A stretch of DNA of 64,000 bases from a virus: positions 1 to 64,000 of IMG/VR virus record IMGVR_UViG_3300020442_000017, one strand, 5' to 3'. The number at the start of each line of letters is the position of its first letter. Positions within the stretch are counted from its first letter, which is position 1. Below are positions 16,572-21,335 of this stretch, in pieces. Both the position numbers and the translations under genes were made by a program. The notes beneath the pieces were generated by a model that saw only the letters and a program-made list of their open reading frames with translations, was not told the origin of the DNA and made no database searches.

Positions 16572-19500
16572 ATGACGATTTCACCTGCTCCATCATATAG
16601 AAATACCAGACAGAATTATTATACAGATAAAGCATCTGATAATCATCCTCTAGGTGCCATTGTCAATACATTCAAAGCAATTACTGATGTATATGATAAT
16701 CAATATACACCATTAACTGCTTATACTGCTGTTAGTGGCAATGCTAATACCCCTACAAATCCTGAGTACCAGTATCCTGGTTACTTATATTGTGATGGAT
16801 CTGAGTATGAAATTAGTGATTTCCCTGCATTATATTCTATCATTGGTAATGATTATGGTGGAACTCCAAGACCAGGTATTAACCTAATTAATGGTGGTAG
16901 TGGATATAGTAGTGGAAGTGGATCAACAATCTACACACAGATCGGTCTTGAGAGTTATACTCAAACACATAATGCACCAATTCTGTTTACTCAGACAGAA
17001 GATGATACAGTAGGCGGTGGTAATCAATTCACTTGGTTGACTGATTATCACAATGCTATTAATGCAATTTCTGCTAATGCTCCATCAACTCTAACATCAG
17101 TTCTATATGGAGGACACGAAGGGTTTACAAAACAAACAGCAGATGGTCAACTACTTCAGACTGCAATTAGATCTGCTCTTGGCAATTCAAATGCTGGAAC
17201 TACTGCTATTACTGCACCCACACCGTTTACTATCACTCCAGCAAATAATCAATCAGCTACTATAAATGGTACATCTTACCCAGTTATGGGTAGATTGTAT
17301 GTTCCTACAAGTCTAGGCAATTCACTTGATGTTGTAGTTGCATTCCATGGAACTCTTGAGGAGAATCCTAACGGTCCAGATATTATTGATGCAGCATTTA
17401 CAACGCTTCAGCAACTTACCAATCAAAATACTGTTAATCTAAGAGATAAGATTATCTTCTCAGTTGCATATCCTCAGGATCATATTTCCAACACAAGACA
17501 GTTTAATCTAGGTGGTGTTGGTACAGAGTCATCAACATTCTTGATGGGAGATAACTTACCTTGGGCAAGAGCAGCAGTTAAGTGGGTTCAGAATGATTTA
17601 AATGCTTATATTGCAGCACAGGGTGGTTCTGTAACTATCAACGATGTTTATCTCTTTGGTCACTCTCAAGGTGGTAAACTTGTCTCTAAGATTAACACCT
17701 TAGATACTGGCATTACTGGTGTAGTTGCAAATGCTCCTGGTCCTATTCAGTTTGATCAAACTTGCTCTGTAGCTGCAAATGCAGCAGGTACAACTTGCTC
17801 AAAAGTTTCTGCAATTCATGGTCCTGTTGGTACTGGTGGTACTGGCACTACAATTACATTTGATGCCGCACCAGCTGGTGGACAAACTATTCAAGCAACT
17901 TTAGTAGTTGATCCTAGTGGTACAGTTATTGGTGTAAATCCAACTAATTTAGGATCAGGTTACACTTCAGAACCATCATATACTATTAATAATGCAGGTG
18001 GTGGTTCTGGTCTTCAATTAGAAGTTAATCTTAATGATGATGGAGCAATTGAATCTATTAATCAGGAGAATGTATTTAATCATTGGGGTGAATCTAGAAG
18101 TTTAGGTACGTTTAAAGTACCTGATCTTAAGACTAGAAAAGTTGTTGGATATGGTAATGTTTATGGAGCTGGAACTCCTAGCATTGGTTTGATTACACTT
18201 GGTGCTGGTGGTAACAATGGTATCGTCAAGCAGGGTGGATCATGGTATTTTGATAAACAATCTCAAACAGGATATTTCTCTCTTGGTTCAATCACCACAA
18301 CTGGTTATAGTGACATTAAAGATGATGTATCAACACGTATAATTGGTAGTCAAAAGGTGCATGTCACAATGGAGCAAAGAAGAATTCAACGAGTACCCGA
18401 TCATACTCATTTCATTTATCATACAGCAGCAGATACAACTTTCCAGTTTCGTAGTGCTATCTCTGGTGATAGGTACTTAGTTGATTATAGTAATGCAAAT
18501 GCACGTTTATTAGGTTGGACACCTATTGGTGGATTACATTTCCGTCATAAACATGGTTTATCTAAATCACCTATCGCAGAAAGAGAAACTGCAACATATG
18601 ATGTATTTGACTGGAGAGGTGGTGCTGAAGGAACTGGTAGTCTTAAATTCACAGGACCAGATTATTATTTCGCATCGGGTGGTTCTTCATCTGGAACATG
18701 GGAAACAGTAACAGAAACTGCACCATCTATGTTCAGAACATTTGTTGGTAACCCACCACCAGGTACAGGTTCTGTTATTGGTAACAGAGAAATTAGAACT
18801 GGTGGTAAAGAAATTCTTACTTACGTTCAGGATAACGTATATACTGGTAATTCATCTATTTCATTCCCACCAGCTTATAAAGTCATGGAAGTTGAAATCC
18901 ATGGTGGTGGTGGATCTGGTAGTGATGGAACACAATCAGGTAATGATGGTAACCCTGTAAACTTTAAAGTTGTAGCAGGCAGCACATTAGTTGATATTAC
19001 TGCTAATGGTGGAGAAGGAGGAGGAAAATCCAATAATTATACAAGTGGTGGTGCTGCTGGTACTGTCACAAAGGCAGGTAGTAATGTAAATAAGGGAGAT
19101 TTCACCTTTGACCAAGGAGTGGATGGAACTGCTGGTCAAATTGGACCTGGTGCAAATGGTAAGTTTCCTGGCACACAATATCCAAATAATCCTGGCCAAG
19201 CAGGTACTGGTGGTGTTGGTTTACATGATAGTGGAAATTATGGTGGTGGTAGTGATGGTGTTCATACACAATTAGGTGGAACACCAACTTCAGGATCAGT
19301 GAATGTTCAAGCTGGAAGTCAGCAGACCGTAAATCTATCAACAACATCAGAATTTAGTGAAATTAAATTCATTATTAGAGGTGGTGGTGGTGCTGATTCT
19401 CAGCAAGGAACTAGTCCATCATTTACTACGTATAATAATGTGCGTGGTGGAGTTGGATCACCTGGCACAGTAATGACACTTGAATGGAAGAATCCTGAAG

Positions 19501-21335
19501 CAAATTCTAATTACCAGTTCTTAATCCAAGCAGGGGGCGTCGGATCACGCTCCTCTGGTTCTAATGGTGATGGGCAAGGTGGTGCTGGCGGTAATGGATA
19601 TAGTAATGCAGGTGGTAAGCGTGGTGGTGATGGTGCTACTGATGATGGTGGTGGCGGTGGAGGTGCTTCCGTTGTTCTTTATCAAGGATCAATCATCGCT
19701 GGAGCAGGCGGTGGAGGCGGCGGTGGCGGTCTTCAAAACCATCCAAATTATCCATATAATGGTCGTGATGGAAGAAGTGCTAGTACATTATATTCAACAA
19801 TTTCAGCAGGAAACCTATACACAGGTGGTGGATCCATTGGTGGTAACTACGGTTGCGTAGGCGGCGGTGGTGGTGGTGGAGGCGGTGGCGTCTCTAGCAG
19901 CACTGCTGGTGGTGGTGGATCAGGTGGTGTTGGTGGTGACCCTACTGGACAAGGTGGTGCTGGTGGTCACGGTGGTGGAGAAGGAGGCAGAGCAGGACAA
20001 TCTGCTGCTAACCTTACTCACTTTAACTTTATCAATGCTTCTTCAAGTAATAGTGGTAATGGTTCAGTAACAATTGAGTATACAGAAGACAATAGTGCAT
20101 GGTCACCTGGCGGTGGCGGTGGTGGCGGTGGAGCATATGTTCTTTATAAAATTGAAAAGGATGATATGCCAGGTGCATCTGGTGCTCAGATAACATTTAA
20201 TTCATCTGCTGCTTCTGGTGTTGGTGGTACAAGTAATGGTCAAGTCCCTTATGCAAGAGTTGGATTTGGTGAAGTCACTGGATATGAAGGTGGTCAAGTT
20301 ACCACATCAGTTGGTGATATTATTGTTGATGCAAATGATAGTACAGATATTTTTGCTTCTGGTGCAGGTAATGGTGCAGGTGGTGGATTCAAACTACCAA
20401 CTACACAAGTTCCTGAAGTTGAATTTGTAGGTGGTGGTGGAACAGGTGCTGCTGCTACTGCTGTTGTATCTGGAAATAAAGTTACATCTATCACATTAGA
20501 TAATGGTGGTTCTGGATATGACGCTGCACCAGTTGTTCGTATTAAACATGGTGCTGGTACTCGTGCATTTGCTACTGCTACTGTAGATGAAGCTACTAAA
20601 ATTATTACTTCCGTTGCATTATCTCCCCTATTAACACCTGAAGCATATAATGCTGGATGGGGATATGTTAAACTAAGTGGTAGTGATCTGGTAAGATATA
20701 TTGTTGTAAAAGAAGCAGATTGTACAAATGTAAAACGCTTTAATATTAAAGTAGCACGTGGTAATGGTCTCAATGGTGGTAATAGACCAGAAAATGGTGG
20801 TGATGAGTTAAAAATCTATTATAATACTGATGGAAGTCTTAACTTTACCTCATTCTTAGGTGTTATTGTTCCTATTCCAACAGCAGCAGAAATTAACACT
20901 CAATACGATGGCACTGGTAGTGGTAGTAATCCAACCAATTGGTATTGGTATGGTATTGATTTACCAACTGCTGCACAAAAACCAAATGTTCGGTTTAAAA
21001 TTGTACAAGACAGAAATCCTGCTGGTGCATCAAATGATAATACAGGTGATACTGATCATTATGGTATTTGTGACTTCATCTATGAATATAATGAGACCAC
21101 TGAACTAAAATTTATTGCTGCTGGTGGTAAGATGTCAACCAACGTTGATAGATTGTCATATGAAGTAGAGGGTGCTGCAAATGCATTCTATTCATCAGGT
21201 GCCACTGGTAATGATGCTACGTTTACACTATCATCACAGGTAGCACTTGTACCAGATGCAGCAATTGAACCTGACATCAATGTACCAGTGGTTGAATCAT
21301 ACCATTTATGCAAATATTTAATCAAAGCGTTCTAA
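16572..21335 (+). CDS. Tail-collar fibre protein with inserted alpha/beta-hydrolase domain and poly-Gly region
   Basis: A 1587-aa protein. The collar fold begins at residues 71-97 (YLYCDGS, FPALYSIIGNDYGG) and resumes only at about 511-526 (LGTFKVPDLKTRKVVG). Between them lies an esterase-like domain: RLYVPTSLG at 241-249, oxyanion-type AFHG at 257-260, and nucleophile elbow GHSQGG at 363-368 with Ser365; Asp395 and His416 are possible partners. GSGY-type beta segments flank it. After the collar come HTHFIYH and FRHKHGL motifs, then a glycine-rich region at roughly 770-1220 with long Gly runs, reminiscent of the polyglycine sandwich of phage S16 gp38-type adhesins, and a further GSGY module. 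Likely a receptor-binding protein able to hydrolyse a surface ester; catalysis is inferred from motifs only. Confidence 0.85.
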   Translation: MTISPAPSYRNTRQNYYTDKASDNHPLGAIVNTFKAITDVYDNQYTPLTAYTAVSGNANTPTNPEYQYPGYLYCDGSEYEISDFPALYSIIGNDYGGTPRPGINLINGGSGYSSGSGSTIYTQIGLESYTQTHNAPILFTQTEDDTVGGGNQFTWLTDYHNAINAISANAPSTLTSVLYGGHEGFTKQTADGQLLQTAIRSALGNSNAGTTAITAPTPFTITPANNQSATINGTSYPVMGRLYVPTSLGNSLDVVVAFHGTLEENPNGPDIIDAAFTTLQQLTNQNTVNLRDKIIFSVAYPQDHISNTRQFNLGGVGTESSTFLMGDNLPWARAAVKWVQNDLNAYIAAQGGSVTINDVYLFGHSQGGKLVSKINTLDTGITGVVANAPGPIQFDQTCSVAANAAGTTCSKVSAIHGPVGTGGTGTTITFDAAPAGGQTIQATLVVDPSGTVIGVNPTNLGSGYTSEPSYTINNAGGGSGLQLEVNLNDDGAIESINQENVFNHWGESRSLGTFKVPDLKTRKVVGYGNVYGAGTPSIGLITLGAGGNNGIVKQGGSWYFDKQSQTGYFSLGSITTTGYSDIKDDVSTRIIGSQKVHVTMEQRRIQRVPDHTHFIYHTAADTTFQFRSAISGDRYLVDYSNANARLLGWTPIGGLHFRHKHGLSKSPIAERETATYDVFDWRGGAEGTGSLKFTGPDYYFASGGSSSGTWETVTETAPSMFRTFVGNPPPGTGSVIGNREIRTGGKEILTYVQDNVYTGNSSISFPPAYKVMEVEIHGGGGSGSDGTQSGNDGNPVNFKVVAGSTLVDITANGGEGGGKSNNYTSGGAAGTVTKAGSNVNKGDFTFDQGVDGTAGQIGPGANGKFPGTQYPNNPGQAGTGGVGLHDSGNYGGGSDGVHTQLGGTPTSGSVNVQAGSQQTVNLSTTSEFSEIKFIIRGGGGADSQQGTSPSFTTYNNVRGGVGSPGTVMTLEWKNPEANSNYQFLIQAGGVGSRSSGSNGDGQGGAGGNGYSNAGGKRGGDGATDDGGGGGGASVVLYQGSIIAGAGGGGGGGGLQNHPNYPYNGRDGRSASTLYSTISAGNLYTGGGSIGGNYGCVGGGGGGGGGGVSSSTAGGGGSGGVGGDPTGQGGAGGHGGGEGGRAGQSAANLTHFNFINASSSNSGNGSVTIEYTEDNSAWSPGGGGGGGGAYVLYKIEKDDMPGASGAQITFNSSAASGVGGTSNGQVPYARVGFGEVTGYEGGQVTTSVGDIIVDANDSTDIFASGAGNGAGGGFKLPTTQVPEVEFVGGGGTGAAATAVVSGNKVTSITLDNGGSGYDAAPVVRIKHGAGTRAFATATVDEATKIITSVALSPLLTPEAYNAGWGYVKLSGSDLVRYIVVKEADCTNVKRFNIKVARGNGLNGGNRPENGGDELKIYYNTDGSLNFTSFLGVIVPIPTAAEINTQYDGTGSGSNPTNWYWYGIDLPTAAQKPNVRFKIVQDRNPAGASNDNTGDTDHYGICDFIYEYNETTELKFIAAGGKMSTNVDRLSYEVEGAANAFYSSGATGNDATFTLSSQVALVPDAAIEPDINVPVVESYHLCKYLIKAF

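Follow-up and report, generated by a model that had tools for sequence, protein, structure and literature searches.

As summarized in Table 1, residues 116-421 of a 1587-aa fibre protein encoded by a marine cyanobacterial virus were found to constitute, with a probability of about 0.8, a complete alpha/beta-hydrolase (ABH) domain that is circularly permuted, nested in a collar fibre, and probably a virion-borne esterase module. The permutation itself was established by sequence comparison and supported by structure prediction. The fibre gene is located in the window, namely the whole 64,000-nucleotide stretch analyzed herein (positions 1 to 64,000 of the 92-kb IMG/VR virus record IMGVR_UViG_3300020442_000017). 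The original prediction had proposed an enzyme-armed adhesin, and with a predicted serine-hydrolase-like ABH fold embedded in a tail-fibre collar, this still appeared to be the best functional reading.

Table 1. Positions in the window of the fibre gene, its nested domains, and the predicted catalytic residues.
Feature	Position	Strand	Basis
Fibre ORF, 1587 aa, host of the hydrolase module	16572..21335	+	PHROG 30655 'virion structural protein'; syntenic with S-WAM2 gp221
Collar domain, first part, residues 69-97	16776..16862	+	PF07484 match at 69-105
Beta domain within collar, first part, residues 98-115	16863..16916	+	Alignment to hydrolase-free S-WAM2 gp221
Circularly permuted ABH module, residues 116-421	16917..17834	+	Sequence comparison, AlphaFold order, PDB fold match
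C lobe, now in front, beta7-alphaE-beta8-alphaF, residues 121-205	16932..17186	+	Native C-lobe HMM 121-207, 4e-29; DSSP order
Asp145, predicted catalytic acid after beta7	17004..17006	+	Invariant in 37/37 aligned relatives
His182, predicted catalytic histidine after beta8	17115..17117	+	Invariant in 37/37
Linker from old C-terminus to old N-terminus, residues 206-216	17187..17219	+	Between lobes in permuted members only
N lobe, beta1-beta6 with nucleophile elbow, residues 217-417	17220..17822	+	Native N-lobe HMM 217-420, 4e-90
Ser365 of GHSQGG, predicted nucleophile	17664..17666	+	Invariant in 37/37; between beta5 and alphaC
Beta domain within collar, second part, residues 422-510	17835..18101	+	Alignment to S-WAM2 gp221
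Collar domain, second part, residues 511-526, LGTFKVPDLKTRKVVG	18102..18149	+	Aligns to S-WAM2 MGTFRVPDL, L042 LGTFAVPDT

Nested domains of the fibre protein

Two collar fibres are encoded upstream of the fibre gene, and S-WAM2 gp221 matched its product in both sequence and gene order. Pfam Collar (PF07484) was identified on fibre residues 69-105 (E = 4e-10; 39.9 bits, above the curated cut-off of 24); it also matched the two paralogues upstream, over almost the full length (17-78) in the first and with a score under the curated cut-off in the second. LGTFKVPDL (residues 511-519), the second collar piece, appeared ~410 residues after the first, and GHSQGG was located between the collar parts at 69-105 and 511-526, in good agreement with the earlier claim that an ABH domain interrupts the tail collar. 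The separation of ~410 residues was also confirmed; the hydrolase occupies only residues ~116-421 of it, and the remainder is a beta domain that is also present in S-WAM2 gp221.

The collar of S-WAM2 gp221 is split by ~110 residues of Gly-rich, beta-like sequence without a hydrolase (an empty site), and the window sequence GGSGYSSG-(hydrolase, ~116-421)-GTGTTITFDAAPAGG was aligned with S-WAM2 GGAGWGG-TVTVTIDAPPSG. By this alignment, therefore, the hydrolase is nested in a beta domain of ~110 aa, which in turn is nested in the collar and splits it; since the pLDDT of the collar and beta domain was below 50, the geometry of this nesting was deduced from sequence comparison. In L042, which shares its contig with L020, the orthologous beta domain carries a native-order hydrolase ~15 residues further on, and this shifted site suggests that the small domain received a hydrolase on two separate occasions. 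The dN/dS of the hydrolase module was 0.42-0.49 against two close relatives, and that of the rest of the fibre was similar. Downstream of the module, fibre residues ~880-1210 (window 19200-20200) were very Gly-rich, likewise in S-WAM2 gp221. Just past the window end, a weaker extra collar-domain match (G000:C1:64742-64804) was obtained in a frame of 1205 aa in this virus record.

Host proteins and virion location

Phage relatives were collected by IMG/VR scans, the first of which yielded 22 relatives of the hydrolase part; because these were 55-70% identical in unrelated host proteins, the insert was regarded as real and not as a chance resemblance. The module was identified in about nine kinds of virion protein, i.e., the window's fibre (PHROG 30655) and about eight others, and the host PHROG families were unrelated (tail protein 457; baseplate wedge 2885/4406; tail fibres 529, 9729, and 15006; short tail fibre 4924; subtilase-containing 9158/3677). 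Hosts beyond these families were a protein in L040 with no PHROG assignment and a small S-SCSM1 protein. Many of the insertion points were Gly-rich. The permuted module near the start of L040:1058-3043 and the N lobe located much later in L066:3105-4259, up to the contig end, seemingly reside in the same host protein, and apparently represent two separate insertions into it. In L039:7778-10735 and L037:9308-12097, the module and a subtilase (Peptidase_S8) domain, i.e., two hydrolase-type domains, were found in one chain, and the short-tail-fibre proteins L055 (aa 802) and L056 (aa 859) showed a second serine-elbow-like motif, GHSIG, downstream of the module.

The small S-SCSM1 protein (QFG06499.1) has been annotated as 'tail fiber protein (virion protein)', and the same 'virion protein' note is attached to the NMNAT of this phage (QFG06348.1), which was named among the proteins detected by mass spectrometry in CsCl-purified S-SCSM1 particles (PMC9602691). 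The note on QFG06499.1 may likewise denote detection by mass spectrometry. A search for a hydrolase-free homologue of this small host protein found none.

Predicted catalytic residues and function

The motifs and residues named in the original prediction were confirmed: AFHG is located at residues 257-260 and GHSQGG, including Ser365, at 363-368, and residues 395 and 416 are Asp and His, respectively. Alignment of 37 relatives (26 phage and 11 bacterial sequences) revealed that Ser365, Asp145, His182, His259 of the HG motif, Cys398, and Cys409 were invariant in all of them; Ser365, the loss of which from homologues had been named as an argument against the hydrolase, was thus retained throughout. 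The proposed assignment of Asp395 and His416 as the triad partners, however, had to be abandoned, as the former was replaced by V, I, T, or E and the latter mostly by Tyr in the relatives, whereas Asp145 and His182 were strictly conserved. That these partners precede the serine is due to the circular permutation of the domain. The catalytic triad is most likely composed of Ser365, His182, and Asp145, with the HG motif predicted at the oxyanion hole, and the nucleophile elbow GxSxG (GHSQGG) appeared in the model as strand E296-305 followed by helix H307-318. A disulfide of the kind seen in extracellular enzymes probably links the invariant Cys398 and Cys409.

The fold, the invariant predicted triad, and the location together suggested that the module most likely functions as a virion-borne esterase directed at esters of the host surface; as the phage adsorbs, it would cleave such an ester on the cyanobacterium, for instance in an O-acylated glycan. 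Polysaccharide deacetylation is a possible activity, guessed by analogy with SGNH tailspike deacetylases such as gp41 of phage Aristophanes (PMC8471582), which, as proposed for the module, is a tail-borne esterase, and acts on host polysaccharide. Unlike the window module, gp41 has an unrelated, non-permuted SGNH fold; no SGNH (SGNH/GDSL) family was found among the Pfam matches, and the fold matches were ABHs. It is conceivable, but rather unlikely, that the permuted fold has been kept as a receptor- or glycan-binding module or as a spacer, and is no enzyme in practice, as its occurrence in structural and adhesion proteins might suggest; mere binding would not be expected to preserve Ser365, Asp145, His182, and the HG motif in every one of the 37 sequences while neighbouring positions vary.

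Circular permutation of the hydrolase

The lobe HMMs built from native sequences matched the window in swapped order (Table 1). Each frame contained one N lobe and one C lobe, namely the same elements as in the native homologue, rotated and in a single copy each, and no extra lobe copy that could represent a duplication intermediate was found. When doubled, each of the six native sequences scored higher in alignment with the window domain (e.g., 900 instead of 668), and every doubled native was aligned in one continuous stretch; the maxima of the shuffled controls were 60-74. The Asp145/His182 segment is N-terminal of Ser365 in the window, and the corresponding segment is C-terminal of the serine in the native-order relatives. 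A truncated hydrolase devoid of beta7 and beta8 after the serine was ruled out, the apparently missing lobe having been located upstream by the native C-lobe HMM.

Structure prediction of residues 60-540, proposed earlier as a check, gave an ABH fold, but in a rotated order (mean pLDDT 65, with only 20 sequences informing the AlphaFold model). The strand order of the window domain was beta7-alphaE-beta8-alphaF-beta1...beta6, and thus not the linear order beta1 to beta8, and the AlphaFold model of a native relative displayed the canonical ABH order. By ten-residue block, the pLDDT of the module was mostly 74-95, and lower near model residues 251-270. Against the PDB, the permuted model was matched best by an engineered permutant, cpHaloTag (8b6n), over 287 columns, although the match was modest (E = 1.2e-4; TM 0.26/0.40); the other ABHs among the matches listed were aligned over ~160-225 columns. 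For the native-relative model, the matches at E ≤ 0.001 comprised 615 PDB chains, of which the best 50 were ABH-type enzymes. The viral library provided one strong match to the window model (E = 3e-26), namely the S-SCSM1 protein. Sequence and profile searches of the PDB with the module returned nothing significant, and its matches to Pfam ABH families were all below the curated cut-offs, indicating a remote member or a new family. The sub-threshold Pfam matches to Peripla_BP_5 and Tannase were regarded as chance or remote.

In this architecture, the old C lobe (beta7-alphaE-beta8-alphaF, with Asp145 and His182) comes first, a short linker bridges the old termini, and the beta6-beta7 loop is opened by the new termini. 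Because the latter would be neighbours in the fold, the entire enzyme could hang, in the inferred geometry, from a Gly-rich loop of the beta domain that interrupts the tail collar. Collar fibres are usually trimers, and the observed order might alternatively reflect a segment swap within the fibre oligomer, with each back lobe completed by a front lobe from a different chain. We consider this improbable, since the single-chain AlphaFold model closes the fold via the short linker, the permuted order is common to many different host proteins, and a second, differently cut permutant is a single short chain of 368 aa. A hydrolase of ordinary order with the triad Ser365-Asp395-His416 would have both partners downstream of the serine, as in normal ABHs, and some ABHs do carry the catalytic acid after beta6; nevertheless, the variability of both residues among the relatives and the lack of beta7 and beta8 after the serine in the AlphaFold model left very little room for this reading. 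An assembly or annotation artefact that scrambled the order in a metagenome contig is of negligible probability, because, even though the majority of the family members come from such contigs, about two dozen of these share the permuted order, across many assemblies and in unrelated unbroken reading frames, and the second permutant is present in the cultured S-SCSM1.

Comparison with known systems

Circular permutation of ABHs is best known from engineering. The PHB depolymerase from Penicillium funiculosum (2d80) is reportedly a natural ABH permutant that keeps the order Ser-Asp-His; unlike the window module, it is neither viral nor inserted in another domain. The engineered cpHaloTag (8b6n), a permutant of haloalkane dehalogenase, is likewise an ABH opened in the beta6-beta7 region, but is man-made, differs in family and chemistry, and is not placed in a host domain. 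Circular permutation of Candida antarctica lipase B, as cited in PMC2395249, is an engineering result, and a 2024 ABH survey described permutation of the peripheral strands beta1/beta2 (PMC11878206). Our literature search, with most subscription papers outside its scope, found no report of a natural ABH of the order Asp-His-Ser or His-Ser-Asp.

Among the relatives, QFG06499.1 of Synechococcus phage S-SCSM1 (MK867354) belongs to the same hydrolase family (~60% identical) and is also circularly permuted, in a protein annotated as a virion protein, but it is cut between alphaE and beta8 and resides in a short protein of 368 aa without a collar. The Bacteroidota-order hydrolases L074-L086 were ~30% identical to the native phage members and shared the invariant Ser, Asp, His, and two Cys residues; in contrast to the window module, they are cellular, stand-alone proteins in native order with a lipoprotein-like signal. 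Cinnamoyl/feruloyl esterases (e.g., 3pf9), S-formylglutathione hydrolases, and acetyl xylan esterases have the same ABH fold as the native-order relative, but all of these are non-viral, canonical in order, and without significant sequence similarity to the module.

In this family, nature seems to have permuted an ABH, apparently making the enzyme pluggable into the loops of virion proteins. Its native members and its two kinds of permutant have kept identical invariant residues, and native bacterial relatives exist as well, which makes the family a rare set in which to test how permutations arise and whether domain insertion benefits from them. A virion-borne esterase is also suggested, including one for a cultured phage, and its target on marine Synechococcus could be identified.

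Chain orders and origin of the permuted forms

Three chain orders were distinguished in the family: the native order (N lobe, then C lobe) in L018, L036, L042, L044, L063, and L065; the first permutant (C lobe, then N lobe), cut in the beta6/beta7 loop, in the window and about two dozen contigs; and the second permutant (His part, N lobe, Asp part), cut between alphaE and beta8, in L015, L028, L033, and the cultured S-SCSM1. A first GTDB scan with the N-lobe alignment as query gave no match, a second one with the native alignment found a Flavobacteriales relative, and the plasmids searched for the module gave no match. In the order of this Flavobacteriales MAG, 29 of the 108 genomes contained a match to the native-order family, nearly the whole query being covered in one piece in 24 of them, and the bacterial proteins read had lipoprotein-like starts. 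Since both this bacterial family and the most divergent two-lobe phage members (L063/L064 and L065) are native, the native order is most likely ancestral.

In the trees, the permuted and native phage members were intermixed, and the second permutant was nested among the first permutants. A single origin of the permuted forms was disfavoured (AU p = 0.013), a weak result given that the same data had served to name the groups and that some branches are long. Members of the family have spread among unrelated virion proteins, and the chain has been recut at two distinct points. As a tentative scenario, the module might act as a mobile domain of virions, inserting into Gly-rich loops of unrelated structural proteins, with a closed-ring sequence and three cut sites (native, beta6/beta7, and alphaE/beta8) that was independently recut more than once, for example, via tandem duplication or a circular DNA intermediate; the separate insertions, native or permuted, in the window versus L042 and in L040 versus L066 would then be its traces. 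In the second permutants L067:8911-10017 (S-SCSM1), L015, L028, and L033, columns 42-80 of the C-lobe profile were found at the front and columns 1-48 or 1-54 at the back, and the ~7-13 profile columns thus present at both ends are possibly, as a weak hint, a trace of duplication.
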